DNA from: Bryobacteraceae bacterium
GTDB taxonomy: Bacteria; Acidobacteriota; Terriglobia; Bryobacterales; Bryobacteraceae
DNA: 64,000 nucleotides
NCBI GenBank assembly: GCA_026002875.1
Contig: BPGE01000001.1
Span: forward strand, 4,278,001-4,342,000
Reading direction: 5' to 3'
The notes under the pieces are model-generated. The model worked only from the letters and a program-made list of their open reading frames with translations. It was not told where the DNA came from and did not search any database. Shown here piece after piece: positions 39,359-64,000 of the stretch. The first letter of the stretch is position 1. Each line of letters starts with the position of its first letter. The translations under genes were made by a program, and so were the position numbers.

Positions 39359-39392
39359 GCGTCAGACCTTCATCGTAGCGTGGCGGACGCGG

Positions 39393-39419
39393 GTAGCACA
39401 CTCCTCTGCGGTTTGCTAC
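39393..39419. promoter_or_regulatory. Inverted repeat upstream of cbiM, candidate metal-regulator operator
   Basis: A perfect 6-bp inverted repeat GTAGCA-N15-TGCTAC. The half-sites are 21 bp apart, two helical turns, on the same face of the helix. It overlaps the likely -10 (TACTGT, 39417-39422) of cbiM and lies near the purU promoter. The spacing resembles the NikR operator GTATGA-N16-TCATAC. A nickel or cobalt sensor is plausible but not shown. Confidence 0.45.
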
Positions 39420-39431
39420 TGTGGTGGCGTC

Positions 39432-49781: not shown

Positions 49782-50678
49782 ATGATTCACCCCCTCCGTC
49801 CGTACCCCGCTGTTCTCGCCTTTGCCGCCATCTTTGCCGCCGCGGCGCAGGTTCCTGCGCCCGCTGACGATCCTGTCGTCGTCGTGCTGGACGGGAAGGA
49901 GTGGCGGAGAAACGAACTCGAGTCGATGATCCGCTCCCTGCCCCCGGATGTCGCCCGGAACTTCTTTCTGAACAAGGAAGCGTTTCTCCGGCAGTACGGC
50001 CTGGTCACTCGGCTGGCGCAGCTTGCCGAAGAGCGGAAAGTGCCCGAGCAGGAGCCCCACAAGACCCGTCTCGCTTACAACCGCATGGTGTACCTGGCCC
50101 AGGCGATGACGGAACTGGCGGCGCTGGAAATCATCGTGAAGCCGGAGGAGCAGGAGAAGTACTTCGCTGAGCACAAGGACGAGTTCTCCCGCGCGCACGT
50201 GAAGGTGATTTACATCAGCTTCAACGATAATCCCCTGCCCTCGCGCGATCCGAAAGCGAAGCGCCCGCGCACGAGCGCCGAGGCCGAAAAGCTGGCCCGC
50301 GAGCTGACGGCCAAAGCGCGGGCCGGGGCCGATTTTGCCGAGCTCGCGCGCAAGTTCTCCGACGACGAAGAGACGCGTGAAAAAGGCGGCGACTACCGGC
50401 CTCTGCAGCCCTATGACAAGAGCCTGCCCCCCGAGATCCGCACCGCCATCTTCTCTCTGCGCCCCGGACAGGTCTCCGACCCCGTGCGGCAGTCCGGGGG
50501 CTTCTGGATTTTCCGCCTGACGGATTTCGTCACGCCTCCTCTGGACGACGTGCGCAACGAAGTCTACGAAGCCGTGCGCGAGGCCAGATTCCGGGAATGG
50601 ATCGAAGGCATTCAGAAGAGCGTGCAGCTGGAAGCGCGGGATCCGCAATACCTGCAGTCCGGCTCGCCGAAGCCATAG
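49782..50678 (+). CDS. Exported parvulin-type peptidyl-prolyl isomerase
   Basis: A 298-residue SurA/PrsA-like foldase with a signal peptide (PAVLAFAAIFAAAAQ). An N-terminal helical chaperone-like segment is followed by the parvulin core at about 140-255: VKVIYISFN, FAELARKFSDDEETREKGGDY, the LQPYDKSLPPEI loop, IFSLRPGQVSDPV and GFWIFRLTDF. It assists folding of periplasmic or outer-membrane proteins. A GAGGAT site lies 5 nt before ATG 49782 and a TATCTT -10-like box just upstream. It is the first of four genes, including two thiol-redox proteins. Confidence 0.88.
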   Translation: MIHPLRPYPAVLAFAAIFAAAAQVPAPADDPVVVVLDGKEWRRNELESMIRSLPPDVARNFFLNKEAFLRQYGLVTRLAQLAEERKVPEQEPHKTRLAYNRMVYLAQAMTELAALEIIVKPEEQEKYFAEHKDEFSRAHVKVIYISFNDNPLPSRDPKAKRPRTSAEAEKLARELTAKARAGADFAELARKFSDDEETREKGGDYRPLQPYDKSLPPEIRTAIFSLRPGQVSDPVRQSGGFWIFRLTDFVTPPLDDVRNEVYEAVREARFREWIEGIQKSVQLEARDPQYLQSGSPKP

Positions 50679-50680
50679 GC

Positions 50681-51217
50681 GTGCGGACGCGCGAGCCAGT
50701 GCGCTTCGAGGGAGCGCCCGTGCGCGTGGAGTGGGCAAACGACCTCCGCGCCTGGCGCGGCAGGCTCCGCTTCGGCCCCGGGCCGGGCGAGGAGGTTCAC
50801 GCGGCCAGCTTCCTTCGCGAGCGGCGGATGGTGCTGGATGAAGCGCTGAGGCACGATCCCGGCGAACTGTCCCGGATCGCCCTCCACGAGCTGTTTCACT
50901 TCGTCTGGGTCCGGCTGGGCAATCCGGTCCGGCGGCAGTGGGAGGAACTGTTGCGGGAGCAGGTGCGGCAGGGAGCGGCAGGCGAGCTCGGCTGGTCCGC
51001 CGAACAGCGGCTGCGCGCGCTGCGTCCATTCGATGTAGCCGGCGGGACGCGCCGCTGGCGCGAATACGTCTGCGAAAGCTTCTGCGACGGCGCCGCCTCG
51101 GCTTTCGGCATTCTCCAGTCTCATGACGAGTTCAGCCTCGAACCCCGGCTGCGGCGGCGGCGCCTCCGCTGGTTTGCCGATTTCAGGCGTCACCGCGGAG
51201 GGGTGTTCCCCATCTAA
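50681..51217 (+). CDS. Small putative zinc metalloprotein (HExxH)
   Basis: A 178-residue protein from GTG 50681, 2 nt after the parvulin stop. It contains IALHELFHFVW, a perfect HExxH (H69, E70, H73). A later WREYVCESFCDGAA segment (about 130-145) could supply the third ligand as a gluzincin-type Glu. No signal peptide is seen. It matches no family I can name; it could be a peptidase or a non-catalytic zinc protein. The operon position is between a foldase and a TlpA-like protein. Confidence 0.72.
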   Translation: MRTREPVRFEGAPVRVEWANDLRAWRGRLRFGPGPGEEVHAASFLRERRMVLDEALRHDPGELSRIALHELFHFVWVRLGNPVRRQWEELLREQVRQGAAGELGWSAEQRLRALRPFDVAGGTRRWREYVCESFCDGAASAFGILQSHDEFSLEPRLRRRRLRWFADFRRHRGGVFPI

Positions 51218-51251
51218 CCTGATAGAATCCCCGATAGGATCTTCCCCAGGA

Positions 51252-51788
51252 ATGCACCGTCTCTTGATGTCCATTGCTTCTCTTGTGCTGGCCTCCAGCC
51301 TTTTGCTGACCGGCTGCGCTTCCCAGATCTCCAAAGGCGAGCCCTCTTCCCGCCGCGGCGCGGACGCGTCCGCCCGCAAGGCTGCGCCGGACTTCGAACT
51401 GAAGGACATGAACGGGAAGACCATCCGCCTGTCCGATTACCGCGGGCAGGTCGTGCTGCTCAACTTCTGGGCCACGTGGTGCGGACCCTGCAAGATCGAG
51501 ATCCCCTGGTTCGTCGAGTTCCAGCGCACCTTCAAAGACCGCGGTTTCACCGTCATCGGCGTCAGCGTGGATGAAGACGGCTGGGAAGCGGTGCGGCCTT
51601 TCCTGGCATCCCGCCAGGTCAACTACCCGGTCGTCATCAGCACGATGGAAGTGGAGCAGAAATACGGCGGCGTGGAAGCTTTGCCTGTTTCTTTCCTCAT
51701 CGACCGCGAGGGACGCATCGCCGGCACTCACGTCGGCCTGGTGACGAAGAAGACCTATGAAGAAGAAATCCGCCAGCTTCTGGATTAG
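51252..51788 (+). CDS. TlpA-like thioredoxin lipoprotein
   Basis: A 178-residue lipoprotein with lipobox LLLTGC (Cys22). It is followed by a disordered linker and a thioredoxin fold of the TlpA/ResA type: APDFELKDMNGKTIRLSDYRG, LNFWATWCGPC with the redox pair Cys77/Cys80, and a cis-Pro in VEALPVSFLIDREG. It should reduce periplasmic disulfides, for example in cytochrome c maturation or rescue of oxidised proteins. A CCAGG segment precedes ATG 51252. It overlaps the DsbD-alpha-like gene by 32 nt. Confidence 0.92.
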   Translation: MHRLLMSIASLVLASSLLLTGCASQISKGEPSSRRGADASARKAAPDFELKDMNGKTIRLSDYRGQVVLLNFWATWCGPCKIEIPWFVEFQRTFKDRGFTVIGVSVDEDGWEAVRPFLASRQVNYPVVISTMEVEQKYGGVEALPVSFLIDREGRIAGTHVGLVTKKTYEEEIRQLLD

Positions 51789-52233
51789 CGCGCTGGCCGC
51801 CCTCGCGCCGCCCCTCTCCGCCCAGGCGCCCCAGATTCTGTCGCTGCAGGAGCCCCAGAAGGTGGTCGTGCCGCGCCAGGGCGAGGTGCAGGTGCCGCTG
51901 AAGCTCAGCATGCGCCCCGGCTATCACGCCAATTCCGACAAACCCTCGGAAGACTACCTCATCCCGCTCCGCCTGGCGTGGGAGTCGAAGGCGCCGCTCG
52001 AACCGGTGGAAATCGTCTATCCGAAGGCGAAGCTCGAGAAATTCGAGTTCACCGAGAAGCCGATCTCCGTCGTCGACGGCGATTTCGAGATCGTCACCCG
52101 CTTCCGCCGGACGCCCAACGCCATGCCCGGTCCGGCTTTCCTCTCCGGCAAGCTCCGCTACCAGGCCTGCAACGAGAAGATGTGCTTCCCGCCACGCACC
52201 ATCGATGTCAAAGTGCCCCTGCTTGTGCAGTAG
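51757..52233 (+). CDS. Exported DsbD N-terminal (alpha) domain protein
   Basis: A 158-residue exported protein (signal ending PPLSAQ). It is the Ig-like alpha domain of DsbD alone: GYHANSDKP, LSGKLRYQACNEKMCFPP with the redox pair C-x4-C (about residues 135 and 140), and TIDVKVPLLV. In DsbD this domain passes electrons from the membrane beta domain to substrates. Here no DsbD/CcdA membrane domain is present, so it may receive electrons from the coupled TlpA protein or an unlinked CcdA. Confidence 0.88.
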   Translation: MKKKSASFWISALAALAPPLSAQAPQILSLQEPQKVVVPRQGEVQVPLKLSMRPGYHANSDKPSEDYLIPLRLAWESKAPLEPVEIVYPKAKLEKFEFTEKPISVVDGDFEIVTRFRRTPNAMPGPAFLSGKLRYQACNEKMCFPPRTIDVKVPLLVQ

Positions 52234-52270
52234 GGGCGGCAGCCTGAGAGCCGGCAGGGAGTCGTTTCCT

Positions 52271-52309
52271 TTGCCGCCATGCGGCAACGGCGCCGGACTC
52301 CGCCGGCGC
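52271..52309. terminator. Double hairpin between convergent genes, possible bidirectional terminator
   Basis: Two hairpins fill the 108-nt gap between dsbD-alpha and the Rid gene: TTGCCGC-CAT-GCGGCAA (7-bp stem, 52271-52287) and a 7-bp GC stem with a 6-nt loop (52290-52309). Neither has a U-tract, so termination is inferred from placement only. Confidence 0.4.
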
Positions 52310-52341
52310 GCCAGCCGTCCCTCAGGCCCCGCTTGCCGCGC

Positions 52342-52833
52342 CTACTCCGCGGCTTCCGGTTTGCGGAAGATGGCGATGGCTTCGATTTCGACGAGCAGCT
52401 CCGGGCGGCACAGGATGGCCTGGATGCCGGTGGAAGCAGGCAGCGGGTCGAGGCCCTGCTCCTGATAAAAGCGCGTGCGCTCCTCGTTGAAGGCCTCGTA
52501 ATCGCGCTCGATGTCGCGCAGGTAGCACGTGGTCCGCACGATGTCCTTCCAGGTAGCGCCTTCGCTTTCGAGCAGACCGGTGATGTTGTGGAATGTGCGG
52601 CGCACCTGCGCACGGAAGTCGCCGATGTGCACGGAGCGGCCGTGTTCGTCGATGGAAGCCGTGCCGCTGATCAGCAGGACGACGATGTTGCCGAATTCGA
52701 GCCGCAGGCCGCGCGAAAACGAGCTGGGCTTGGCGTAGCAATAGGCCTCGTTGAGCACGCGGGGATTCGAAATCGCCTTCTTTTCGATGGAAACGGCCCT
52801 TGCGGCTTCGGCCAGGGCTTCTTCGAGCCTCAT
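52342..52833 (-). CDS. Rid-family protein lacking the signature arginine
   Basis: A 163-residue RidA/YjgF-type trimeric fold: YAKPSSFSRGL, LLISGTASIDEHGRSVHIGDF, FHNITGLLESEGATW, IVRTTCYLRD and LVEIEAIAIFR. Active RidA imine deaminases have Arg in a P-A-R segment; here it is LPASTGIQA, so the deaminase activity is doubtful and it may belong to another Rid subgroup. No signal peptide. It is the last gene of the seven-gene redox operon, overlapping the binding-protein stop by 4 nt. Confidence 0.85.
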   Translation of the reverse strand: MRLEEALAEAARAVSIEKKAISNPRVLNEAYCYAKPSSFSRGLRLEFGNIVVLLISGTASIDEHGRSVHIGDFRAQVRRTFHNITGLLESEGATWKDIVRTTCYLRDIERDYEAFNEERTRFYQEQGLDPLPASTGIQAILCRPELLVEIEAIAIFRKPEAAE

Positions 52834-53843
52834 GATGGAGAGACCTCCTCTAGGATGACGGATGAAATCGCCCGCCTGCCGTTGGGCGCGAAGCGCGAAG
52901 CAAGCCGCCCGCGCACGGCAGAACGGTTTGGCCCTGCTGACTGAATGCATTCTAACAGCAGGGCGGTGGACTCGTAGGCAAGCTGCAGGAAGACATCGCC
53001 GGCAGCCTGAAAGCGGGCCTCGGCGGCCCGGAGCAGTTCGGGACGGGGTGTTTCCAGCACGGGCGCCATCACCGGGCGCGCGAGCCGGCCGCGGCAGGCG
53101 CGGGACCAGGCCGTAGGGCCGCAGATGACTCTGCAGTCCCGCGGCAGCCTCGAGAGGACGGCGCACAGCGCGGAAGGCGGCGCAAAAACAACGACCGCAT
53201 CGTGCGCAGGCTCCGGCGGCAGATTGGGCGGCTGGAAGTCGTGCCGCTCGGCCGGCTGCGCCATGCGCGCGAGCACGCGCGCCAGCTGCCGCGAGCCGTG
53301 ATCGGTGGCGGCCAGCAGCGTATATTTGGCGCCGCCGAGACCGTCGCGGATGGCGCGGGCAAGGACGGAGTCGCCCGGCGCCCAGCTGAAGATCCAGGGA
53401 ACGAACGCCGCATTGGCCGTTTCGTCGGTCGAGACCGGATCCAGCAGCGGGAACAGCGCCTTGGCGGCCACCTGCTCCGCCAGATGCGTGGAGGCGCTGT
53501 CGATGCCGCCGATGACGGCGACGGCGCGGTCTTCTTTGGCCAGCCGCACCACGGCCGAGGCCCCGGCCCGCCACGGATCGTCCGACCAGCGGCAGAACAG
53601 GCGGAAGGGTTTCTGTTCTTCGCCCGCGCGGGCGTTGGCGTGCTCGAGGGCGAGCTGCACGCCCATGAACACCGCGCCCCCGGCTTCATGCTTCGGATCG
53701 TCCGGTCCGAAGAAGCCGACGGGCACGAAGGGCAGATCGTCGATGTCCGGCGAAGGCGCTTCGCCCGGCTGCAGGGGCGCGGCGCGCCTGTCGAGATAGG
53801 GCGCCGCCGCCTGCACGGCCAGGAAATGCCTCCGCGTCATCAT
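52830..53843 (-). CDS. Periplasmic binding protein, branched-chain-amino-acid type (Tat-like signal)
   Basis: A 337-residue type I periplasmic binding protein with a Tat-like leader (MMTRRHFLAVQAAA). The core shows VPVGFFGPDD, GVQLALEHANA, VAVIGGIDSASTHLAEQVA, FPLLDPVSTDE and YTLLAATDHGSR. It is a paralogue of the following gene; both have an I-D-S-A-S/N-x-H element. No permease or ATPase is in the operon, so it may be a sensor or shuttle rather than part of an ABC importer. Confidence 0.83.
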   Translation of the reverse strand: MMTRRHFLAVQAAAPYLDRRAAPLQPGEAPSPDIDDLPFVPVGFFGPDDPKHEAGGAVFMGVQLALEHANARAGEEQKPFRLFCRWSDDPWRAGASAVVRLAKEDRAVAVIGGIDSASTHLAEQVAAKALFPLLDPVSTDETANAAFVPWIFSWAPGDSVLARAIRDGLGGAKYTLLAATDHGSRQLARVLARMAQPAERHDFQPPNLPPEPAHDAVVVFAPPSALCAVLSRLPRDCRVICGPTAWSRACRGRLARPVMAPVLETPRPELLRAAEARFQAAGDVFLQLAYESTALLLECIQSAGPNRSAVRGRLASRFAPNGRRAISSVILEEVSPS

Positions 53844-53847
53844 CGCG

Positions 53848-55323
53848 TCACTTCGTCTCCGCCTGCGTCAGCAGCTCGCGCGCGGTGCGCTCGCGCATGG
53901 GCACATAGCCGCGCGGGATCTGGAGATCCTCGCGCGAGTAATAGCGCCAGCGGCCGTTTTCGAACCGGGCGAGATAGACTTCGCCGGCGTCGTCGAGAAC
54001 AGCCGAAAACGGGATGTCGCCGGTCACTCCGGGCCACGGCTTGATGCGCGTGGCGAGGATGTCGCGGATCTTGGCGCGGTTCAGTCCGGCCACCTGGATG
54101 GCCCAGATCAGCATGTTCATGCCGTCGTAGGCGTGGGCGGCGTACGTGTCCGGCTCGTCGTTGAAGCGTTTCCTGAACCGCTCGCGGAACTCGGCATAGC
54201 GCGGATTCGGCGCATCGGGGTTCCAGGGGTAGCCGGCGATGACGCCCTCGGCGTGCTCGCCGGCGATCTGGAGGAATTCCTTCGTCACCGCACGGTCGGA
54301 CGTGAGGAAGGGCTGCTTCATGCCGCGCTCGCGGATCTGCTTCAGGATGATGGCCGCCTCGCGCGCGTCGCCCCAGTGGACGATGACATCCGGCTTGACG
54401 TCGGCGATCCGGTCGATCTGCAGCGAGTAATCGTCCTGTCCCAGCTTGTACGCCATCTCGATGACCACCGGACGGCCAAGGCGGCGCGCGGAATCGCGGA
54501 TCTCGCGCACGCCGAAGCGCCCGTAGCGGTTGGAGGCGCGGATGATGGCGATCCGCTTGTAATCCATCTTGCGGATCATGTAATCCACCATCAGGTAGCC
54601 CATCTGACGGTCGTCCCCGATGCAGCGCATCGTCCACGGGATGTTGGTCTCGATGTAGGTGGGATCGGTGTCGCCCGTGTTCATGACGACGATCTCGCCC
54701 TTCAGCGCCACGCGGATGGCGATGTGGGAGTTGGCCGAGTCGATGGTGCCGAGGATGGCCCAGACGGGGTTGCGGTACAGGAAGTTGGCCACTTCGTTCC
54801 CCGTGGAGCCCCAGAGGCCGTTGTCATTGGTGACAACCAGTTCGAAGGGGACTTTGCGGCGCAGGTAGCCGCCTTTCGCGTTGGCCTCCTCGATGGCCAG
54901 GCGCGCTCCCTGCAGCATCTTGATGCCGAGCGGCTCTTCGTGGCTCGCCCCGCCGGTGGCGATGCTGACCGTGCTCATGATGGGCCCGATGAAGCCGATC
55001 TTGACGGTCTTGACATCCTCCGGCTCCGGAATGGCGCGGCCCGGGCCGTTGTACTGCATCTGCTCGAGGAAATGTTCCTTGTAGGGCTTGATCTTGCCGA
55101 AGGGCTCGTAGTCGACGGGAGTCTTCGCATAGGAAGTCTCGCGGCGCAGCCGGATGTCGGGCACTTCATACGGGCCGACAGAATTGATTCGCCGCAGCAC
55201 CTCCAGCGTGTGATCGTCCACTTCGATGCCGGGCGGCACGAGCGGCTCGCTCGAGGCCGGCTTCTTCGCCTCGTCCGAGGCCAGCAGGACGGCGCAGGCA
55301 AGGAAAGGCAGCAGCCGTTTCAT
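53848..55323 (-). CDS. Periplasmic binding protein, branched-chain-amino-acid type
   Basis: A 491-residue type I periplasmic binding protein with a Sec signal (LLPFLACAVLLAS) and about 100 extra N-terminal residues before the core (VKIGFIGPIM). Core elements are LGIKMLQGARLAIEEANAKGG, LGTIDSANSHIAIRVAL, MNTGDTDPTYIETN, IAIIRASNRYGRFGVREI and VIVHWGDAREAA. The ligand is unknown. Its start overlaps the upstream propeller gene by 4 nt, and a 4-nt gap separates it from the paralogue. Confidence 0.87.
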   Translation of the reverse strand: MKRLLPFLACAVLLASDEAKKPASSEPLVPPGIEVDDHTLEVLRRINSVGPYEVPDIRLRRETSYAKTPVDYEPFGKIKPYKEHFLEQMQYNGPGRAIPEPEDVKTVKIGFIGPIMSTVSIATGGASHEEPLGIKMLQGARLAIEEANAKGGYLRRKVPFELVVTNDNGLWGSTGNEVANFLYRNPVWAILGTIDSANSHIAIRVALKGEIVVMNTGDTDPTYIETNIPWTMRCIGDDRQMGYLMVDYMIRKMDYKRIAIIRASNRYGRFGVREIRDSARRLGRPVVIEMAYKLGQDDYSLQIDRIADVKPDVIVHWGDAREAAIILKQIRERGMKQPFLTSDRAVTKEFLQIAGEHAEGVIAGYPWNPDAPNPRYAEFRERFRKRFNDEPDTYAAHAYDGMNMLIWAIQVAGLNRAKIRDILATRIKPWPGVTGDIPFSAVLDDAGEVYLARFENGRWRYYSREDLQIPRGYVPMRERTARELLTQAETK

Positions 55324-56474
55324 TTCTCGTCCCTCCTGTTTTCGGCCAGCATGCGCGGCCTCTCGCGCAGGCCGGAATAGTAGCCTTCGCCGATGCCCCA
55401 GGCGAGCCCTTTCGCCGTCGCCACGAAGACGTCTTTGTCATCGACATCGATGGCGATGATGAAGTTGTGGGGCACGTTCAGGCCCATTTCGATGGTTTCG
55501 AGCACCGTCTTGTCGCGCATCACGACGGCCTTGCCTGAATCCGACTTCGGATCGCGCGTGTAGGCCACCCACGTGTTGGTTTCGGCGTCCATGATGGCGC
55601 CGAGCCCCTTGTCGGAAGCGAACCACGCCTCGCGCCCGCTGCGCGCCCGCAGGTTGTTGTTGAAGTCCGAGGGCAGGCCGGAGTCCATGTTGTAAAAGCC
55701 CCGCCAGTTGCGGCCGTCGTAGCGGCAGACGCCGAAATAGGACGACACCCAGAGCACGTTGTCGACATAGTTGGCGCCAGTGGTGATCACATGGACGATG
55801 CCGTCGTCGCGGTACAGGTCGATCTCCATTTCGCCGTCGGGATCGAGATAGTCCTTCCAGCGGTTGGTCTTGACGTCATACTCGAGCACGCCGGAGCCCC
55901 AGACGGCGAGATGGACCTTGCCGTCGCGGTAGTGGACGCCGTAGTTCCAGATCTCTTCCATCGGCGCGTTCTTCTCGGTGAAGATGGTCCACTCGCCGGT
56001 GACCGTGTTGTAGCGGGAAGCGCCCGCGGTGGTGGCGGCCCAGACGTTGTCATTCTCCACCGCCACGCCGTAGACAACGTCGTTCACAAGACCGGAATTC
56101 AGCTGGTGCCAGTGGTCGAACCGGCCGCCGCTGAGGCGCGCCAGCCCGCCGCCGAACAGCGCCAGCCAGACGTCTCCCGTCTTCGGGTCGACGTCGATGC
56201 CCGTGATTGAGGGCCACGGCAGGCCGTCCTTCTCCGTCCACACCCGGACCACTTTGGCCGTGCGCTTGTCGATCAGGGCAAGACCGTGATCCGTGCCCAC
56301 CCAGATGCGGTGGCCGTCGCTTTTCACCGCGTAAATGTGATCGTCGGGCAGGCCGTCCTTGACCGTAAACTGCTTCCACTTCGTGTAGACAAAGGGGAGC
56401 TTTTCAGCGCCCGGCTCGGCAGCCAGGGCGGAACTCATCATCCCGATGGCGAGCAGAATGGCGGCAGGTTTCAT
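55320..56474 (-). CDS. Exported beta-propeller protein (two-component-regulator propeller-like)
   Basis: A 384-residue exported protein (signal AAILLAIGMMSSALAAEP). Its blades resemble the Reg_prop repeats of sensor kinases: FTVKDGLPDDHIYAVKSDGHRIWVGT, GLALIDKRT, GLPWPSITGIDVDPKTGDVWLALFG, DNVWAATTAG and DNVLWVSSYFGVCRYDGRNW. There is no kinase or membrane part, so it is a free propeller. It may scaffold the binding proteins and the multiheme protein encoded next to it. ATGA overlaps occur at both ends. Confidence 0.8.
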   Translation of the reverse strand: MKPAAILLAIGMMSSALAAEPGAEKLPFVYTKWKQFTVKDGLPDDHIYAVKSDGHRIWVGTDHGLALIDKRTAKVVRVWTEKDGLPWPSITGIDVDPKTGDVWLALFGGGLARLSGGRFDHWHQLNSGLVNDVVYGVAVENDNVWAATTAGASRYNTVTGEWTIFTEKNAPMEEIWNYGVHYRDGKVHLAVWGSGVLEYDVKTNRWKDYLDPDGEMEIDLYRDDGIVHVITTGANYVDNVLWVSSYFGVCRYDGRNWRGFYNMDSGLPSDFNNNLRARSGREAWFASDKGLGAIMDAETNTWVAYTRDPKSDSGKAVVMRDKTVLETIEMGLNVPHNFIIAIDVDDKDVFVATAKGLAWGIGEGYYSGLRERPRMLAENRRDEK

Positions 56475-59272
56475 AGCGTTTTCAGGAACTCGATCAGATC
56501 GTTCAGTTGATCCTTGGTCATGTCGTTCGTGTACCCGTGCCTGTCGTACGGGTTGTACACGGTCCAGATCTCTTCCAGCGTCTTCGCCATGCCGTTGTGG
56601 AGGTATGGCGCGGAATCATAGATGTTGTTCAGGTGCGGCACGTCGAACAGCCCGGTGCGGTCCAGCGCCTGCCGGGTGCCGACGTCGAAGCGGCGGCGGT
56701 TGGTGTAGTACGGCGGCGGATGGCAGAACACGCAGCGGCCCTCGGGCGGAATGATGCGCCCGTCATTGGTGCGCGTGCGCTCGAACAGCTCCTTGCCGCG
56801 GCGCTGCGCGGGGGTGTAACGCGTGCCGGGCGTGTAATAGCGGTTCGGCGGACGGCGGATGGTGGAGATGTAGTAGTCCACCGCGTTCAGCTCTTCGGGC
56901 GTGAAGGGGAGATTCCGGGTGAAGAACACCGAGAGCCGCGCGCCGCACTGCCGCTGCAGGGAAGGATTGGTTCCCTCCCACTTGAACGGCGCGGTGTCGC
57001 CAATGCCGCGCAGCGTGCGGTTGTCGACGGGCGAGACGCCGATGCCGTCGGGCTCGATGTCATACGTGATGCCGTCGACATGGCCGTCCGGATGGCAGGA
57101 ATGGCACGAATACTGGTAGCGGAACGTGACGCGGGCGTTGTGGAAAAGCTTCTCGCCCCGGCGCTGTTTCGTGATCTCCTGCGGCCCCCCGAGCGGGATC
57201 TTCCCGGCGGGTTCGAAGCGGGTCAGGTCAATGATGCCGATGGAGTCGTCAAGGCAGTTGGCGACGTAAGCGCGCCTTCCGTCGGCCGAGATCAGCAGTC
57301 CGCGCGGGCTGTCTTCCGCCGGAATGGTCTTGACCAGGAACTCGGCGGCCTTGCCCAGGTGGTTGGGCAGGACGCGGCGGCGCTCTTCGTCCGTGGCGAT
57401 CTCCAGCACGCGCAGCATCTTCCCGACGTCCAGCACGGCCACGCGGTTCGTGCCGGAGCTGGTGACCAGCGCGAAGCGGCCGTCGGGCGTGATCCTGACG
57501 TCGGTGGCGTCGGCGAAGCCAAGGCCGGGCTGATCGAGCAGCAGCTGGTCGATGCGGCCATCCGCCCAGATGATGGCGATGCCGTTGGTGATCGTCCAGC
57601 CCTGCAGCAGCCGCGTCATCGGCACCAGTCCCTTGGTGCGGTTCATCGTGGCCAGGGCGAAGCGGCCGGACGGATGCCAGTCGACGCCCATCATGAGATT
57701 GGTGCCCTCGACGAGCCAGCGTTCCTCGACGCGGGCCGAGGCGGCGTCGATCACGGTCAGCTCGCTCGCCAGCGGCTGGCGGAAACCTGTCAGGTTCGAG
57801 TACATGTTGGTGACGAACAGGCGCGTCCCGTCGGGGCTGAGCGCCAGCTCCCAGGGGCCGCGGCCGGCGGCGAGCTTCTTCTCGAAGGCGAGCGTCAGCG
57901 GGTGATAGACGTGAATGTCCCCGCTCGAGGTGTTGAGGACGAGGACGTGCCGGTCGCCCGGCGTGACAAGGACGCCATGCGGTTCATCGCCGGCGGGGAG
58001 CTTCTTCTCCACCCTGCGCGCGGCCGCATCGATGACGGCGACCGTGTCCTCTTCGCGGTTGGTGACGAAGGCGCGCCGGCCGTCGCTCGTGAAGGCGACC
58101 CCAGTCGCAGCGCCGCCGGTAGGGATCTCCGCGAGCACGCGGCGCGTGCGCAGGTCGATGACAGCCACGCCATCGGCGGCCTCAAGCGTCACCCACATCT
58201 CGCTCGTGCCTGGCCGGAACGCCATGCGGAGGGGGTTCTTGTACTTCACCTCGGCGGCGCGCGGCGGGAGCGTGGAGGGATGCGCAATCTTCTTCCACGC
58301 TTCGGCGGCGTTGAACGTCCTGCCGTGGGCCGGATTGTGGCAGCGGGCGCAGTCGTCGAGAGAGACGGGCCTCAGGCCGGCGGCGCGCGCGGCGGCCGGA
58401 TCGCGCATGATGGCGTCCGTGGAATACTTCCTGCCCGCGCCGTGGCAGGCTTCGCAGCCGACGCCTTCATCCGCGTGCGGTCCCGGAGCGTGGCACTTCA
58501 GGCACGCCTGGCTCTGCTGCGGATCTCCGCTGACATTCATTTCGCGGGCCAGCTCGAGCGCGCGCGGCGTGGACAGCACGGCCCAGGCGCGCGCATGGGG
58601 ACCGCGCCGCCAGACATCGTACTGATGGCCGTGATCGGGGCCGCGGTGGCAGGCGCCGCAGGCGGCCGCGCCGGTGAAATCGCCCGGATCGGACTCCTTC
58701 AGGCCGCCCATCTTCGACGGTTTCGGCAGCGGGTGGGCGATCTGTTTCCACGCCTCGTCGATGTTGACCGTGGGCTTGGGCAGGACGGCGATGTGCGAGC
58801 CTTTCTCGAGATGGCAGACGAGGCAATCGTCTTTTGTGGGCATGCGCAGGCCCGCCATCATGGCCGCCTTGCGGTCGCGCATCACGGCCTCCGTGGCGTA
58901 CTCGCTCCCCGGTCCGTGGCAGCCCTCGCATTGCAGGCCGTCTTCGCGCCGGAACGTTTCGCGGTCCACTTCGCGCTCATCGGCGTTGAACGCCGTGGAA
59001 TGGCAGCCCAGGCAGATGGCCGCCTCCCACGGGGCTTCGCGCAGGCCGCTGATCTTGGCGATCTCCCACGACTCGGGCCTGGAAAGCGCCGCGTAGGCCT
59101 GCGCATGCTTCGACAGCAGCCACTTGCTGTACTGGTGGCCCATGCCGGGGCCGTCATGGCAGGAGGCGCAGACCTTCGAGCCGACATACACAGGCTTGGC
59201 GGGCGCGCCGCGGGAAACGAACACGAGCGGCGCCAGCGCCGCCGCAGCCAGAATCCAAGCGAGCCTCTTCAC
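56471..59272 (-). CDS. Decaheme fusion: two tetraheme repeats, YVTN propeller, MauG/CCP-like diheme domain
   Basis: A 933-residue exported protein from GTG 59272 (signal LAWILAAAALAPLVFVSRG). It has ten CxxCH motifs: CASCH, CLGCH, CEGCH, CLVCH, then CGACH, CLKCH, CEACH, CARCH, and later CHSCH and CVFCH. Residues about 30-190 and 195-345 are two copies of a tetraheme cytochrome c554-like module. About 350-690 form a YVTN propeller (VAVIDLRTRRVLAEIPTGG, RAFVTNREEDTVAVIDAAA). About 690-933 resemble diheme cytochrome c peroxidase/MauG. The start GTG overlaps the upstream stop (GTGA). A periplasmic electron-transfer or peroxidase role is likely; the substrate is unknown. Confidence 0.87.
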   Translation of the reverse strand: MKRLAWILAAAALAPLVFVSRGAPAKPVYVGSKVCASCHDGPGMGHQYSKWLLSKHAQAYAALSRPESWEIAKISGLREAPWEAAICLGCHSTAFNADEREVDRETFRREDGLQCEGCHGPGSEYATEAVMRDRKAAMMAGLRMPTKDDCLVCHLEKGSHIAVLPKPTVNIDEAWKQIAHPLPKPSKMGGLKESDPGDFTGAAACGACHRGPDHGHQYDVWRRGPHARAWAVLSTPRALELAREMNVSGDPQQSQACLKCHAPGPHADEGVGCEACHGAGRKYSTDAIMRDPAAARAAGLRPVSLDDCARCHNPAHGRTFNAAEAWKKIAHPSTLPPRAAEVKYKNPLRMAFRPGTSEMWVTLEAADGVAVIDLRTRRVLAEIPTGGAATGVAFTSDGRRAFVTNREEDTVAVIDAAARRVEKKLPAGDEPHGVLVTPGDRHVLVLNTSSGDIHVYHPLTLAFEKKLAAGRGPWELALSPDGTRLFVTNMYSNLTGFRQPLASELTVIDAASARVEERWLVEGTNLMMGVDWHPSGRFALATMNRTKGLVPMTRLLQGWTITNGIAIIWADGRIDQLLLDQPGLGFADATDVRITPDGRFALVTSSGTNRVAVLDVGKMLRVLEIATDEERRRVLPNHLGKAAEFLVKTIPAEDSPRGLLISADGRRAYVANCLDDSIGIIDLTRFEPAGKIPLGGPQEITKQRRGEKLFHNARVTFRYQYSCHSCHPDGHVDGITYDIEPDGIGVSPVDNRTLRGIGDTAPFKWEGTNPSLQRQCGARLSVFFTRNLPFTPEELNAVDYYISTIRRPPNRYYTPGTRYTPAQRRGKELFERTRTNDGRIIPPEGRCVFCHPPPYYTNRRRFDVGTRQALDRTGLFDVPHLNNIYDSAPYLHNGMAKTLEEIWTVYNPYDRHGYTNDMTKDQLNDLIEFLKTL

Positions 59273-60912
59273 TGCCCTTTCCTCCGCACTTCCGCCTTGT
59301 GACGGAGCGTAAGCACCTGGTTCGCCTTCACTCCAGGGAACTTCTCCACCGCGCCGTCCGGCCAGCGGATCTCGACATCGCACGTCTGCGCTCCGCCGAG
59401 GCCGAAATGAAGCCGCGGGTCGTTCTGGCCCAGATAGCCGCGCACGGGATTGACGTCCTCCACCATGCGCAGTCCGTTGGCCGTCACCGTGACGCGCGCG
59501 CCCACCGCGGTGCGCGAGCCGGCGGGGAAATCGAGCCGCGCGTCGACCATCAGCCACGGGCGCGCGTTGCCGCCTTCGTTGCGCAGCAGCACCGGCGTAT
59601 CGTTCAGGTTGACGATCAGCAGGTCGACATCGCCGTCGTTGTCGATGTCGGCCCAGGCGGCGCCGCGGCCCACGCGCTTGGTATTGAAATACTCGCCGGC
59701 CTCGCGCGAGACATCCTCGAACGTCCCGTCCCCCTTGTTCCGCGTCAGGCTGTCTTCCTGGACGTACTCATGGTGCGCATGCCCGTGCACGGTGAACAGG
59801 TCGAGCCAGCCGTCGTGGTCCCAGTCGAACATGATCGGGCCCCATCCCGCGTACTGGCCCAGCAGCGGCGACAGCCCGGCGGCGTCGTTCAGGTTCTCGA
59901 AAAACTTCTTCTTCGGGTTGTAGACGAACAGCGAAACGTACTGCAGATTGGGCACGAACAGATCCAGCCAGCCGTCGCGGTTGACGTCGCCATAAAACGG
60001 GCCCATGGAAGCCACGCCCTGGCCGTGTTCGCTGAAAGCCAGCTCGAACTCGAGGCCGCTTTCCACGAACGTGCCGTCGCCCCGGTTCAGGAAGAAGTAG
60101 TTCTCCATCGCGTCGTTCGACGTGAACACGTCGATGAGGCCGTCGTTGTTGAAGTCGGCGGCGGTGACGCTCATGGCGCGCCCGCCCGGTTTCCACATGC
60201 CGGCTTCTTTGGTCACGTCGGTGAACGTGCCGTCGCCGTTATTGCGGTACAGGATGCTCGGCAGGCCCTGATAGCTCAGGGGTCCGGGATAGCCCTGGGC
60301 CGGGTAGAAATCGCGGAACTTGCCGTCGTCGTACAGCAGATAGTTGGCGACGTAAACGTCCAGCAGGCCGTCGTTGTTGTAATCGAACCACACGGCGTGG
60401 ATCGACCAGCGCGCGTCGTCCAGGCCGGACTCCTTCGAGATGTCTGTAAACGTGCCGTCGCCGTTGTTCCGGTAGAAGCCATTCGGGCCGTAATTCAGGA
60501 CGTACAGATCCACGTCCCCGTCGTTGTCGAAGTCGGCGGCCGAGCAGCCGGAGCCGAACACCTTGCTGGCCACGCCCGCTCTGCCGGTGACGTCCTCGAA
60601 CCGGCCGTTGCCGAGGTTCCTGTACAGCCGGTTGGAGAGCTTGCCGCGCAGGTCGCGGCCGTCATTGTCGCTGACGCCTTTCGTCCAGACTCCGGTGACG
60701 AAGTAGATATCCTGCAGGCCGTCGTTGTCGTAGTCGAAGAAACAGGCGCCGGCGCCCGTGCCCTCGACGATGTTGTCGAGCTTGTGATCGCCGATGCTGT
60801 GCCGGAACGTGATGCCGGCCTGCTTCGTGATATCGGTGAACACCGGGCCGCGTGCGCCGGTCGCGGCGGCCAGCGCCAGCGCGGCCGCGGCGGCCGCGAG
60901 TCCGTTTCTCAT
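59269..60912 (-). CDS. Exported FG-GAP/VCBS propeller with ASPIC/UnbV domain (CRTAC1-like)
   Basis: A 547-residue exported protein with many calcium-binding FG-GAP repeats, recognisable by DxDxDG-type loops: FFDYDNDGLQDIYF, ADFDNDGDVDLYVLN, FDYNNDGLLDVYVAN, ADFNNDGLIDVFTSN, GDVNRDGWLDLFVPN and ADIDNDGDVDLLIVN. The C-terminal ASPIC/UnbV segment ends VEIRWPDGAVEKFPGVKANQ. It is likely periplasmic or cell-surface and calcium-dependent. ATGA coupling upstream and GTGA downstream. Confidence 0.9.
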   Translation of the reverse strand: MRNGLAAAAAALALAAATGARGPVFTDITKQAGITFRHSIGDHKLDNIVEGTGAGACFFDYDNDGLQDIYFVTGVWTKGVSDNDGRDLRGKLSNRLYRNLGNGRFEDVTGRAGVASKVFGSGCSAADFDNDGDVDLYVLNYGPNGFYRNNGDGTFTDISKESGLDDARWSIHAVWFDYNNDGLLDVYVANYLLYDDGKFRDFYPAQGYPGPLSYQGLPSILYRNNGDGTFTDVTKEAGMWKPGGRAMSVTAADFNNDGLIDVFTSNDAMENYFFLNRGDGTFVESGLEFELAFSEHGQGVASMGPFYGDVNRDGWLDLFVPNLQYVSLFVYNPKKKFFENLNDAAGLSPLLGQYAGWGPIMFDWDHDGWLDLFTVHGHAHHEYVQEDSLTRNKGDGTFEDVSREAGEYFNTKRVGRGAAWADIDNDGDVDLLIVNLNDTPVLLRNEGGNARPWLMVDARLDFPAGSRTAVGARVTVTANGLRMVEDVNPVRGYLGQNDPRLHFGLGGAQTCDVEIRWPDGAVEKFPGVKANQVLTLRHKAEVRRKGQ

Positions 60913-62246
60913 CGCGAACCTCCGTTGGTGAGAATGGCGGGGGCGGCGAGCTTCACCGGCTTCTTGATCACGGCCTTCGCCTCGCGGTTTTCCGGCGTCA
61001 GTTCGGGGTCCTCGTGGCAGCCGATGCAGCCGCGGTTCTCCTTCGGCCGCGTGTAGACCCACGAGGACGCGCGGACCACCTTGCCGTCGCGGTTCACCAG
61101 CTCCATCTTCAGCGGCGTGTTCGGAGGCACGTCGAGATGGAACGAACCGTCATCCTCGATGCGCAGGTCGCCGATTTTCAGGGGATTCGACGGCGAGCCG
61201 GCATAGACGCGAAGCCGCCACGGCTGGCCGGGCCGGATGAGGTCAGGCCGGTCGGTGGTGAAGACGCTCAGGCAGTACAGGCGGCTCCAGCCGGCGTCCT
61301 CGTCGACCACCGACCCGCGCCCCTCGGGGACGCGCCGGGGAAACACGCCGCGCGGCTGCGTGGCCGAGACGCCCGGCTTCACGTACACGGGAACTCTCGT
61401 CCCGTTCGCCGGATTGAACCGGTAAATGCCGGCAGGCGAGGCAGAGTCCTTCTGCCACGCCACCAGAAGGCGCCCGTCCGGCAGCGGCGAGGGCGACGAA
61501 TAGATGCCGTCGCCAGGCCTGGTCAGTGTGCGTTTCGTATACAGCGGGCGCACCAGATCGACGGATGCCAGCGCGCCATCCCCCTCGACGAAAACGAGCC
61601 TGCCGTCCAGCGTGGCAGCCGGCTCGCGCGGGCGGTCGCCCGGCACATACAGCGAGTAGTCCGTGCCGTCGAGGTTGACGGCCATCAGGTGCGTGCGCGA
61701 GCCCTGTTTCGAAGAGAACACCATCATGCCGTCGGGCAGCATCACGGGGCTGGACTCCTCCCACGGCGTGAAGGTGATCCGTTGCCGCAGCGTTCCATCG
61801 AACTTCACCGTGTAGAGCGCCCCGCCGGAAATGAAGGCTGCCTGCGGCCACGGATCAGGGATGTCCAGGCTGAAGATTTTCGATTGATAGGCAGGCTGCC
61901 GGCAGTCCGCGCTCATGCGCGTCAGCTGGCGGACGGCGCCGGTGGCCAGGGTCATCTCGTAAATCTGCCAGGGCTCGCCCGCGGTCTTCCTGCCGGCGAA
62001 CAGAACGTGCTTCGCATCCCACGAAACCTGCGGGTCGGCGGCAGCGTAAAAACCCTGCGACAGAACGCGGGCGGCGCCGCCCGGAACGGCCAGAACCAGC
62101 CGCGGCTGCCCTCCGGCGGGCGTTTCCGTCAGGACAACCGGCGTCCGCGCCGCGGCGGTCCGGTCCGGCTGCGCGGACAGCCCCTGCAGACAGAGCAGAC
62201 CCGTCAGAAACAAACAGGATCTGAAACTCCCCTTTGCATTCCGCAC
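60909..62246 (-). CDS. Exported TolB/hydrazine-synthase-alpha-like monoheme protein
   Basis: A 445-residue exported protein starting at GTG 62246 (signal FLTGLLCLQGLSAQ). The propeller part has TolB-like blades (DPQVSWDAKHVLFAGRK, SSPVMLPDGMMVFSSKQ, YSSPSPLPDGRLLVAWQ). The C-terminal WVYTRPKENRGCIGCHEDPE carries one CxxCH. This arrangement resembles HZS-alpha-type middle domains found in many non-anammox bacteria. It is the first gene of the seven-gene operon and probably delivers or accepts electrons with the decaheme protein. There is no evidence for hydrazine synthesis here. Confidence 0.78.
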   Translation of the reverse strand: MRNAKGSFRSCLFLTGLLCLQGLSAQPDRTAAARTPVVLTETPAGGQPRLVLAVPGGAARVLSQGFYAAADPQVSWDAKHVLFAGRKTAGEPWQIYEMTLATGAVRQLTRMSADCRQPAYQSKIFSLDIPDPWPQAAFISGGALYTVKFDGTLRQRITFTPWEESSPVMLPDGMMVFSSKQGSRTHLMAVNLDGTDYSLYVPGDRPREPAATLDGRLVFVEGDGALASVDLVRPLYTKRTLTRPGDGIYSSPSPLPDGRLLVAWQKDSASPAGIYRFNPANGTRVPVYVKPGVSATQPRGVFPRRVPEGRGSVVDEDAGWSRLYCLSVFTTDRPDLIRPGQPWRLRVYAGSPSNPLKIGDLRIEDDGSFHLDVPPNTPLKMELVNRDGKVVRASSWVYTRPKENRGCIGCHEDPELTPENREAKAVIKKPVKLAAPAILTNGGSR

Positions 62247-62254
62247 TGAGTGAT

Positions 62255-62283
62255 AGTCTATGGGGAAAGCCCCGGGAATCCAA
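62255..62283 (-). promoter_or_regulatory. Promoter of the seven-gene redox operon, leaderless arrangement
   Basis: On the minus strand TTGGAT and TAGACT are separated by exactly 17 nt, the best sigma-70-like pair in the window. The -10 ends 8 nt before GTG 62246, and no Shine-Dalgarno lies between, so the first mRNA codon may be the start codon. Confidence 0.55.
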
Positions 62284-62366
62284 TACGGGCGGGATGTTAC
62301 TGCAAACCGATTAGAAAGACGTGCGCGGGATTGTGGAAACCCTCCGCAGGCCAGCCGCGCAAGGGC

Positions 62367-63362
62367 TCAGTAGGCGCCGCACTCCATCAGGGCGCGGACT
62401 TCCGCCGGATCGCTGGTCCTGCCCAGAATCAATGCCAGCCGGATGCGCGCCTTGGCGGCGTTCAGCGTGCCGGCGAACAGCACGCCGCGCTGCCGGAGAT
62501 CGTGGCCGCTGCCTTTGTAGCCGTAGATGTCGAGCACCCGGCCATGCGCGCAACGGGTGGCGATGACGACGGGAATTCCGGCGTCAATGGCGCGCTGGAT
62601 GGCGGGTACCGCCTGCGGCGTCACGTTGCCCCGGCCCGTTCCTTCCACGACGATGCCCCGCGCGCCGCTTTCGCGGGCGAAATCAATGAAGCGGCCGTCC
62701 GCTCCGGCGCACATCGTCACCAGATCCACCCGCGTTTCAATCCGCGGCGCCTCGATGACGATGCGGTCGATCAGGCGGCGGCCGAAGATGACCCGGTCCA
62801 CGTCGACGAGGCCGAGCGGCCCGAAAACGGGGCTCTGGAACGTCTCGAGCTGCTGGGTGTCGGTCTTGGTGGCTTCGCTGGCGGCATGGATCATCTGGTT
62901 CAGGACGACGAAAACCCCCTGGCCGCAGGCCTGGGGGCTGAGCACGGTGCGGATGGCGGCGGAGAGGTTGGCGGGGCCGTCGAAGCCGGGTTCGCTGACC
63001 GTGCGCATGGCGCCAACCACCGCCACCGGCTTCGGCGAGGTATGGCGCAGATCGAGCAGGTAGGCGGTCTCTTCCAGCGTGTCGGTGCCATGCGTGGCCA
63101 CGGCGCCGGCGATCTCCTCGCGGGCCAGCTCCCGCCGCAGGATTTCGCTCACTTCCCACATCCGCTCCAGCGTCATATGGGGGCCGGGGTACTGGCCGTA
63201 TTCGAAGACTTCAAGCTCGGCCAGGGATTGCAGCGCCGGGTCGTGCTCCAGCAGCTCCCGCGCGCCGAGAGCCGGCACGGCGGCGCCGACAGCCGGGTCG
63301 TAGCGCATCCCGATGGTTCCTCCGGTGAACAGGACGAGCACGCGGGCCATGGCACCTCCCAT
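62367..63362 (-). CDS. L-asparaginase (type I/II family)
   Basis: A 331-residue amidohydrolase: VLFTGGTIGMRYD with the first catalytic Thr, VATHGTDTLEETAY with the second Thr and Asp, GAMRTVSEPGFDGPANL and IVVEGTGRGNVTP. No signal peptide, so a cytoplasmic asparaginase is likely. Start ATG 63362 has a GGAGG site at good spacing; ATG 63350 (MARVLVLF) is also in frame, but its GGAGGT lies only 3 nt away. Its stop is 120 nt from the operon promoter at 62255, so it is a separate unit. Confidence 0.9.
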   Translation of the reverse strand: MGGAMARVLVLFTGGTIGMRYDPAVGAAVPALGARELLEHDPALQSLAELEVFEYGQYPGPHMTLERMWEVSEILRRELAREEIAGAVATHGTDTLEETAYLLDLRHTSPKPVAVVGAMRTVSEPGFDGPANLSAAIRTVLSPQACGQGVFVVLNQMIHAASEATKTDTQQLETFQSPVFGPLGLVDVDRVIFGRRLIDRIVIEAPRIETRVDLVTMCAGADGRFIDFARESGARGIVVEGTGRGNVTPQAVPAIQRAIDAGIPVVIATRCAHGRVLDIYGYKGSGHDLRQRGVLFAGTLNAAKARIRLALILGRTSDPAEVRALMECGAY

Positions 63363-63427
63363 TGTCCTCCTCCGGATGCGAGTGCGAAGAGTGAGAATCC
63401 TCGTGCCGTGGCGGCACTAAATGTGCG

Positions 63428-63688
63428 ATGGCAGCTCCCCTCCGCATGGCGGAGCCTGAACCGCCGGGCTTGCTGGCGCGGCTGGCACGGGCCGCCTGCC
63501 CCGCCTGCGGCAGCCCGAGAGCGGTCCGCTCGCAGCGCAGGACGGCCGCGGATCACCTGCTGGGCGTGCTTGGCCTGAGGCCTTTTCGATGCCAGTCCTG
63601 CCGCTGGCGGTTCCATGCGTGGCCATCCCTGCGGCTGCTGGCTGGACCCTTGCCGGACGGCAGAAGCCGCGCCCGATACCCCCGATAA
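63428..63688 (+). CDS. Small zinc-ribbon protein
   Basis: An 86-residue protein with two Cys pairs, CPACGS near residue 24 and CQSC near 55, separated by a basic and hydrophobic region (RAVRSQRRTAADHLLGVLGLRPFR). This forms a probable zinc ribbon; the intervening hydrophobic LLGVLGL is common in similar small acidobacterial proteins. Function unknown. It is divergent from the asparaginase gene. The start could also be at the internal ATG six codons in. Confidence 0.65.
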   Translation: MAAPLRMAEPEPPGLLARLARAACPACGSPRAVRSQRRTAADHLLGVLGLRPFRCQSCRWRFHAWPSLRLLAGPLPDGRSRARYPR

Positions 63689-63699
63689 AAAATATCGAT

Positions 63700-63728
63700 T
63701 TGTCTTGAGTCCAGACAGGCCGCATAAT
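63700..63728 (+). promoter_or_regulatory. Promoter of the last, partial gene
   Basis: TTGTCT and CATAAT are separated by 17 nt. The leader to ATG 63867 is then about 130 nt and holds several GC hairpins (for example CCCGC-CTGA-GCGGG near 63756 and a second inverted repeat around GCCCG-AAC-GGCGGGC near 63825). I could not assign it to a riboswitch class. Confidence 0.45.
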
Positions 63729-63866
63729 TCCTTCAAGTCTGGAACTCACCCCGCCTGAGCGGGACAACGTGCTTTAGTCCCGCATCCTCCGGACCTCAGC
63801 CCGCCTGGCCAGCAGTGTTGCCCGAACGGCGGGCGGCATCCCACTCCGAAATCAGAGGTACAACCG

Positions 63867-64000
63867 ATGCGGCAGACGTGTGTCTTCCTGTTCTTTGTCT
63901 CCTGCTGCCTGCCGGCGCAGACACCCGCTCCCGAGCCAGCGGCCGGAACGGCGCAGCCGCCCAATGCTTTTGGCTGGAAGCGGCTCCAGTTCAGCGGCTA
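63867..64000 (+). CDS. Secreted protein, 5' end only (partial)
   Basis: The first 44 codons of a gene that runs off the window. ATG 63867 is preceded by AGAGGT 7 nt upstream. The product begins MRQTCVFLFFVSCCLPAQ, a good Sec signal, followed by a Pro/Ala-rich stretch and NAFGWKRLQFSGY. A Cys near the cleavage site could allow lipidation but no lipobox is clear. No family can be named from this fragment. Confidence 0.7.
   Translation, partial: MRQTCVFLFFVSCCLPAQTPAPEPAAGTAQPPNAFGWKRLQFSG

Follow-up and report, generated by a model that had tools for sequence, protein, structure and literature searches.

The 64,000-nucleotide stretch of Bryobacteraceae DNA analysed here (contig BPGE01000001.1, positions 4,278,001 to 4,342,000; hereafter the window) carries on its minus strand an operon of seven genes, which we call g1 to g7. 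Two of the products, g1 and the multiheme fusion g3, are homologues of the subunits of hydrazine synthase (HZS), and a third, g7, is a small Rid-fold protein with motifs of the chorismatases. The genes are listed below from g1 to g7, each followed by the parts and residues that the argument uses.

g1, 60909..62246, minus strand: HZS-alpha-like protein of 445 amino acids with a propeller, an HZS_alpha middle domain and one CxxCH heme motif
CIGCH motif, g1 residues 407-411, 61014..61028, minus strand: counterpart of the heme-alphaI motif, with Glu and not Tyr at His+4
g2, 59269..60912, minus strand: FG-GAP/UnbV_ASPIC protein with a signal-like start
g3, 56471..59272, minus strand: decaheme fusion protein of 933 amino acids
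g3 N-terminal region, residues 1-343, 58244..59272, minus strand: two cytochrome c554-type stretches with eight CxxCH (PF13435)
g3 residues 344-684, 57221..58243, minus strand: HZS-beta-like propeller
g3 residues 685-933, 56474..57220, minus strand: HZS-gamma-like di-heme module of the CcP/MauG superfamily
Trp765 of g3, 56978..56980, minus strand: position of HZS gamma His144
Cys776 of g3, 56945..56947, minus strand: equivalent of HZS gamma Cys165, the extra heme cross-link residue
Arg779 of g3, 56936..56938, minus strand: position of HZS gamma Asp168
g4, 55320..56474, minus strand: free Reg_prop-type propeller (PF07494) with a signal-like start
g5, 53848..55323, minus strand: type I periplasmic binding protein (Peripla_BP_6)
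g6, 52830..53843, minus strand: second, divergent Peripla_BP_6 protein
g7, 52342..52833, minus strand: Rid-fold protein of 163 amino acids (Ribonuc_L-PSP) with chorismatase-type motifs, no signal seen
PASTGI motif, g7 residues 132-137, 52423..52440, minus strand: Ser134 at the position of the RidA Arg; like PAATGI of the Hyg5 N-domain
CRPELLVE motif, g7 residues 142-149, 52387..52410, minus strand: like Hyg5 Cys327...Glu334

An earlier note, made from the sequence alone, had described a coupled operon of these seven genes with five overlaps and one 4-nt gap. All seven reading frames are open at the positions it claimed, and the junctions from g1 to g7 read, in order, ATGA, GTGA, ATGA, ATGA, a 4-nt gap (between g5 and g6) and ATGA, each overlap being of 4 nt. 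Library searches agree with its family calls, and the ten CxxCH motifs that it had placed in one protein were counted again in g3, eight within residues 1-343 and two within the C-terminal 250 residues. Its statement that all products except the last are exported holds for most of them. Judged by eye from hydrophobicity, g1-g5 have a signal-like hydrophobic stretch at the start and g7 has none; the export of g6 is unsure, as its start (MTRRHFL) is twin-Arg-like and its hydrophobic stretch weak.

The alpha, beta and gamma subunits of HZS are all present as homologues in g1 and g3. The g1 protein matches the Pfam family HZS_alpha (PF18582) at 59.2 bits (cut-off 26.6) and the NCBIfam model of HZS alpha (NF052339) with E 4.4e-26. 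It is co-linear with chain 5c2v_A (total E 2.2e-19) over three stretches (E 4.7e-6, 1.7e-4 and 0.11), the last of which ends at the heme-alphaI CxxCH. An AlphaFold2 model of g1 (mean pLDDT 78.8, the part from residue 411 onward being of low confidence) fits 5c2v_D with Z 32.1 and a root-mean-square deviation (rmsd) of 2.8 over 397 residues at 28% identity; the next-best structure is TolB (Z 28.5, 258 residues), which corresponds to the propeller part. The heme-alphaII domain of HZS is missing, because g1 stops 34 residues past its only CxxCH. In g3, residues 345-682 match HZS beta (NF052340, E 2.4e-35; 5c2v_B, E 1.9e-30), and the C-terminal 250 residues match 5c2v_C with E 1.5e-18 alone and 9e-42 with a 14-row profile (A1). 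Pfam finds cytochrome c554, propeller and weak di-heme matches in g3. The label 'HZS-alpha-like' that g1 had been given is borne out, the beta and gamma parts inside g3 having been missed. The accompanying claim that no known pathway uses this set has to be dropped, since every HZS subunit has its homologue in g1 or g3 and the core fits a published clade (PMC12758564).

The scores fall well short of the NCBIfam equivalog cut-offs for HZS, with alpha at 91 of 800 bits, beta at 122 of 560 and gamma at 75 of 625; taken together, the NCBIfam scores range over 75-170 against cut-offs of 560-1250. Residues of gamma were matched by numbering 5c2v_C from its alignment with g3, the first gammaI Cys being Cys102 (PMC12758564). 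At heme gammaI, the position of His144 holds Trp in 95 of 96 aligned sequences (the exception is L038) and that of Asp168 holds Arg in 96/96. Cys165 has a Cys equivalent in 93/96, window included, the exceptions being L033, L036 and L038. Of 84 alpha sequences examined, 83 have a CxxCH, and the place of the heme ligand Tyr591 (His587 + 4), read from the first CxxCH, is Tyr in none and Glu in 72. According to PMC12607021, Asp168 of HZS is connected with supplying protons for the reduction of NO, and Tyr591 with heme alphaI. Because His144 is replaced by Trp and Asp168 by Arg, and alpha Tyr591 is absent, the pair g1 and g3, judged on sequence, is not a hydrazine synthase. A search with PF13447 over the genome (one contig, 100% completeness) for a separate HAO-type partner gave g3 as its sole match; nrfA, nirK/S and nor were outside that search. 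Hydrazine synthesis was ruled out as a function on the replaced Tyr591, His144 and Asp168 together with the lack of a separate PF13447 match.

HZS was previously thought to have arisen de novo, lacking homologues, until homologue clades I-IV were described in December 2025 (PMC12758564). In that paper, clade I has the gene order alpha, FG-GAP protein (a family there called CRTAC1) and beta-gamma, with eight additional CxxCH at the N-terminus and Cys at position 165 of gamma. Paludibaculum fermentans and Syntrophobacter fumaroxidans are among its members; a one-heme alpha is noted in Opitutus terrae, and binding proteins are mentioned in the passage on clade III. The g1-g2-g3 core has the same order and the same eight extra motifs, and it fits clade I as a new member of a published group, as far as sequence can tell. 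HZS-like genes are also reported in Phycisphaerae by PMC10732223, where a broader family with other substrates is already proposed. The main text of PMC12758564 does not contain RidA, endoribonuclease, two-component regulator or deaminase ('rid' occurs only within another word). Among the papers listed by our literature search for a connection of HZS with chorismate, Rid or DAHP synthase, PMC12758564 alone names hydrazine synthase, and we saw such a connection in no paper that we found, with subscription papers (e.g. the HZS and Hyg5 structure papers) lying outside the search.

The seven genes recur together in distant phyla, more than chance would explain. All seven are found in the same order in 4/4 genomes of the same genus. 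In G031 and in one copy of G032 all seven are present with the Rid gene shifted upstream of alpha, and G019 has two copies that carry the eight-heme c554-type arm of g3 (we call such loci armed), one of them without the second binding protein. The loci L031-L034 and L036 have no arm, and their Rid gene lies between the Reg_prop gene and a binding protein; in L035 just alpha and FG-GAP are present, and in L030, where the contig ends, just part of alpha, while L037 is without a Rid gene. A divergent cluster, L038 (G025:C298), combines beta-gamma with an alpha open reading frame (ORF) of 820 codons that has three CxxCH. A gene of the g7 family is encoded there on the other strand, and the gamma part of L038 is without the Cys165 and Trp equivalents.

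Scanning a collection of species genomes with a gamma profile gave at least 588 stretches with a pattern match, at least 523 of them relatives, of which we kept the best 80, chosen by gamma alone. These loci span Acidobacteriota, Planctomycetota, Verrucomicrobiota, Bacteroidota and Omnitrophota, the labels being assigned from record titles and set to Acidobacteriota for loci not listed there. Among loci with sufficient flank, alpha occurs in 54/55 (missing in L045), the FG-GAP gene in 64/66 (missing in L081 and L086), a Reg_prop relative in 74/74 and a binding protein in 62/62. The c554 arm was detected in 40/80 loci and not in the other 40, and at least two of the latter, L072 and L076, are truncated by the end of their contig. 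Counts over 96 loci are partly non-independent, as some places carry two ids (e.g. L024 = L039), and L023, L024, L030, L035, L037 and L038 are not in every alignment. Profiles were built without L030, which lies at the end of a contig. The module has a patchy distribution within the phylum, where 24/396 genomes have gamma at E 1e-20 or better. A quick gamma tree of 87 rows, which took in 5 of the 16 first-set loci, places the window in a 44-row clade (SH-aLRT 99) that is mostly armed and mixes planctomycete with acidobacterial sequences. Gene order kept across phyla, with homologues that are not scattered, supports the earlier proposal of one functional unit. Just after the planctomycete clusters L050, L056, L063, L070 and L071 there are extra FG-GAP-type genes on the opposite strand.

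The best conserved gene among the distant relatives is g7, with 69-97% identity over 12 of them. In its family the position of the catalytic Arg of RidA (105/107) holds Ser in 57/58 sequences and Ala in 1/58. With Hyg5 (structure 5ag3), g7 has in common the motifs SGTAS, H-x-GD and CR-x-x-LLVEIE of the C-domain and PA-x-TGI of the N-domain. C142 and E149, equivalents of Hyg5 Cys327 and Glu334, are present in 58/58; the Glu occurs in RidA types too, which leaves the Cys alone as the telling residue. A role as an AroH-type chorismate mutase, a fold that presumably resembles that of g7, is conceivable as well. The Hyg5-type Glu has been described as essential (PMC7170507). About 10% of RidA proteins have Ser at the Arg position, and Rid subfamilies without the Arg are most likely not imine hydrolases (PMC4433059). 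That Ser does not agree with a view of g7 as a standard imine-deaminase Rid protein.

The g7 family and the gamma module occur together. Of the 396 phylum genomes, 22 have the g7 family (E 1e-30 or better), and 13 have it together with gamma where 1.3 would be expected (Fisher p 1.3e-12, uncorrected for kinship). In clusters with at least 4.5 kb of downstream sequence the g7 family is present in 33/57, i.e. in 24/29 unarmed and 9/28 armed loci. The most frequent extra gene is a DAHP synthase, a gene of aromatic biosynthesis, seen in 20/80 clusters (22/96 scanned loci) behind the Rid gene, ahead of alpha, in between the binding-protein genes or last; its distribution requires at least five changes on the gamma tree. 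Both the Rid and the DAHP synthase gene were counted anywhere in a stretch, and the DAHP synthase of L066 and the Rid gene of L081 are on the opposite strand. The one DAHP synthase tested scores above the NF006421 cut-off.

The link to DAHP synthase extends beyond the clusters. We fetched 16 stretches around g7 relatives. The cluster is present in L128 and L134, and probably also, truncated where the contig stops, in L121, which has a piece of alpha behind its Rid-DAHP synthase pair. In 4 of the 13 non-cluster stretches (L123, L124, L127 and L133) a DAHP synthase adjoins g7 on the same strand at 0-157 nt, measured from tblastn ends. The nine without an adjacent DAHP synthase include several short contigs, and L126 has a weak gamma-like frame. 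Upstream of alpha in L059, L066, L071 and L073 lies a weakly chorismatase-like protein of 376-421 codons, whose match reaches the N-terminal half of the profile. Other neighbours of g7 were also seen. A 2-oxoglutarate/Fe(II) oxygenase (Pfam) stands next to g7 in L119 (7914-8699, minus strand), where the complex is absent, and a gene of the same BLAST cluster does so in L120 (6446-7243, minus strand). A protein of 834-854 codons lies beside g7 or its DAHP synthase in L123, L125 and L133, two of which have a DAHP synthase; the one scanned, from L123, has a PD40 propeller and TPR repeats. In the window itself the PF00793 gene at 15845-16840 was considered as a partner and rejected, being KdsA-like and beside KdsB-like and PyrG-like genes (by eye).

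Our preferred interpretation, which we hold with slightly better than even confidence, is that the operon encodes an exported redox complex of HZS fold that is not a hydrazine synthase and is linked to a chorismate-derived aromatic compound. For the aromatic part by itself we would put the chances at about even. This agrees with the earlier note in its outline of a mostly exported, multiheme redox set with a link to a small molecule. In such a complex, g1, alpha-like and with one heme, and g3 would form an HZS-type core, g3 contributing an octaheme wire, the beta propeller and the gamma di-heme catalytic module. The gamma heme would perform redox chemistry on a small molecule; it is probably still cross-linked by the Cys, and its neighbours would be a Trp like that of MauG/CcP and an invariant Arg. 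The eight c554-type hemes may exchange electrons with a partner outside, in either direction. Accessory roles in assembly, docking and substrate capture could fall to the FG-GAP protein, the Reg_prop propeller and the pair of binding proteins. The g7 protein, cytoplasmic in this view, and the DAHP synthase of many related clusters would supply or handle the chorismate-derived aromatic, which may be substrate, product or mediator.

Several observations weigh against this interpretation. No DAHP synthase is present in the cluster of the window; the genome has two DAHP-synthase-like genes, both located away from it and with only distant similarity. Against the chorismatase model TIGR04444, g7 reaches 32.4 bits where the cut-off is 325, and it does not have the two-domain chorismatase architecture. 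Its alignment score is 136 with a RidA-type protein and 61 with Hyg5, at 33% and 34% identity, respectively. A predicted model of g7 (mean pLDDT 84.6) best matches single-domain Rid proteins, e.g. TdcF (Z 15.2, rmsd 2.1, 126 residues), and identity to PH0854 is 33% over 97 residues; no chorismatase chain is among the best 50 structure matches in either g7 list. We read the model as neither supporting nor excluding a chorismatase role. Nor is g7 needed everywhere, because the g7 family is present in 1/16 armed planctomycete loci with enough downstream flank and is lacking in some unarmed acidobacterial clusters (L079, L083, L089 and L096). A joint change of the Rid and DAHP synthase genes on independent branches is not shown, the four usable pairs giving no power. 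Finally, the best-scoring solved chains for g5 carry the names of amino-acid binders, and some loci have regulators nearby, as discussed below.

Other explanations share much of this evidence. The complex could serve extracellular electron transfer, the octaheme arm and the di-heme module feeding an outside acceptor, with the aromatic as a shuttle and no HZS-like chemistry. The weak likeness of the eight c554-type hemes to MtrC/MtrF and DmsE-type proteins favours this, as do the peat, groundwater or sediment samples named in some records. However, the 40 loci in which no arm was detected, L072 and L076 at least being contig-cut, keep most of the other genes, a Pfam-type family scan found no porin family in any of the seven proteins, and the conserved cross-link Cys of gamma would point to catalysis, so that we consider this explanation unlikely. 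A little less probable still is a MauG-like maturation, in which the gamma module oxidises residues of a partner such as g2 or g4 into a protein-derived cofactor. The Trp at the MauG/CcP position (its meaning as given in PMC12758564) and weak matches to MbnH-family and MauG-like models would fit, whereas the gamma match to HZS (9e-42) is far stronger than those to the 'Di-heme enzyme' 6e1c (6.4e-15) and to MauG chains (2e-6 at best), and fused beta-gamma next to an alpha partner corresponds to the HZS architecture.

The products might also be a sensor or surface-binding complex, with the Reg_prop, FG-GAP and binding proteins detecting a ligand and the hemes as parts of the signal path. The g4 protein (24.4 bits to Reg_prop, cut-off 20.4) matches the solved chain 4a2l_A with E 7.2e-22, and its solved relatives are sensor-kinase ectodomains; the two binding proteins come without a permease. 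By eye, an NtrC-type regulator is near 7/80 loci and a sigma-70-like factor near 6/80, the former being response-regulator-like genes on either strand in L042, L043, L073, L093, L100, L114 and L116. Such neighbours are on either strand and in few loci, however, while the module genes are near-constant, and ten hemes seem to us too many for a sensor; we rate this as very unlikely. That the operon encodes a true or incipient hydrazine synthase, forming N-N bonds as in anammox, we regard as highly improbable: homologues of all three subunits and the conserved Cys165 speak for it, and the replaced Tyr591, His144 and Asp168, the NCBIfam scores and g3 as the only PF13447 match of the genome speak against it. 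For g7 alone, and overlapping with any of these explanations, it may be an ordinary Rid imine deaminase that guards against imines from a complex oxidising amines or amino acids. The Rid fold, the higher overall score to RidA-type proteins than to Hyg5 and the amino-acid-type binding protein g5 are consistent with this. We doubt it, to about the same degree as electron transfer, given the Ser or Ala in place of the RidA Arg, the published view of subfamilies without that residue (PMC4433059) and the DAHP synthase linkage.

Around the operon we found further genes, three of which adjoin it.

L-asparaginase gene, 62367-63362, minus strand: in the same orientation as g1 and 120 nt upstream of it
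ResA-like gene, 51123-51788, plus strand: converges on the 3' end of the operon
DsbD N-domain gene, 51757-52233, plus strand: converges on the 3' end of the operon

For the operon no promoter-like site was found, terminator-like sites are as frequent as in shuffled sequence (8 against a mean of 8.1), and Rfam gave nothing at gathering scores over 50000-64000. The transcript may begin further upstream and be shared with the L-asparaginase gene, because this gene precedes g1 on the same strand here and in 4/4 same-genus genomes (tblastn). It has no tblastn match in the other 13 relative stretches, i.e. it is genus-level context only; its product would release ammonia. The ResA-like and DsbD_N genes (51123-52233) are typical of cytochrome c thiol chemistry. 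As cytochrome-c maturation partners within the module they were rejected, neither being found by tblastn in 17 relative neighbourhoods, same-genus ones included. Further away, and identified by eye, are a DUF438/hemerythrin/PAS-like protein (47256-48512, plus strand), 4 kb from the operon end, and CbiM/CbiQ/CbiO-like genes for a cobalt or nickel energy-coupling factor (ECF) transporter (39342-41652, plus strand).

New here are the DAHP synthase linkage and the g7 family itself, which occurs alongside gamma, carries motifs of the chorismatases and has no RidA Arg; HZS relatives from different phyla belong to a multi-gene module that is almost constant. A bolder idea, to which we give little credence, is that a family of HZS architecture in at least five phyla (by record title) employs the two-heme, tunnel-linked design for chemistry other than that of hydrazine. 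It would couple a reactive intermediate from the cross-linked heme gammaI to an aromatic derived from chorismate, which a dedicated DAHP synthase and g7, as a new single-domain enzyme acting on chorismate, would make, and HZS itself would be an offshoot of such a shikimate-linked redox system. The metabolic lead given by g7 and the DAHP synthase makes the function of the HZS relatives, and the origin of HZS, directly testable.

Compared with the HZS of Kuenenia stuttgartiensis (5c2v), the window has the same alpha propeller, middle domain and heme-alphaI CxxCH, the same beta propeller and gamma di-heme module, and the equivalent of gamma Cys165; the beta-gamma fusion of g3 is shared with Scalindua HZS (PMC12758564). 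It differs in having no equivalents of Tyr591, His144 and Asp168, an alpha without the alphaII domain, eight extra hemes on beta-gamma, the alpha gene first with an FG-GAP gene between, additional Reg_prop, binding-protein and Rid-type genes, and no separate PF13447 match in the genome. The Phycisphaerae UBA1845 metagenome-assembled genomes, for which anammox is allowed as a possibility, share with the window an hzsA that adjoins a fused hzsBC (PMC10732223). Three of these, OFTM321, OFTM5 and OFTM286, are our loci L077, L078 and L081, and unlike the window they have alpha directly before beta-gamma, no FG-GAP gene between and a beta-gamma ORF with six CxxCH. The g7 protein has the SGTAS, H-x-GD, CR-x-x-LLVEIE and PA-x-TGI motifs of the FkbO/Hyg5 chorismatases (5ag3; FkbO, 4bps) and differs from them in its single Rid domain, its score of 32 against a cut-off of 325 and an activity that is putative; with the RidA/YjgF imine deaminases it shares the fold and differs in the catalytic Arg, which is Ser. 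Clade I, as described in PMC12758564, has the gene order, the eight extra N-terminal CxxCH, the Cys at gamma 165 and the Trp at gamma 144 in common with the window, which differs in the one heme motif of its alpha, as in Opitutus terrae.

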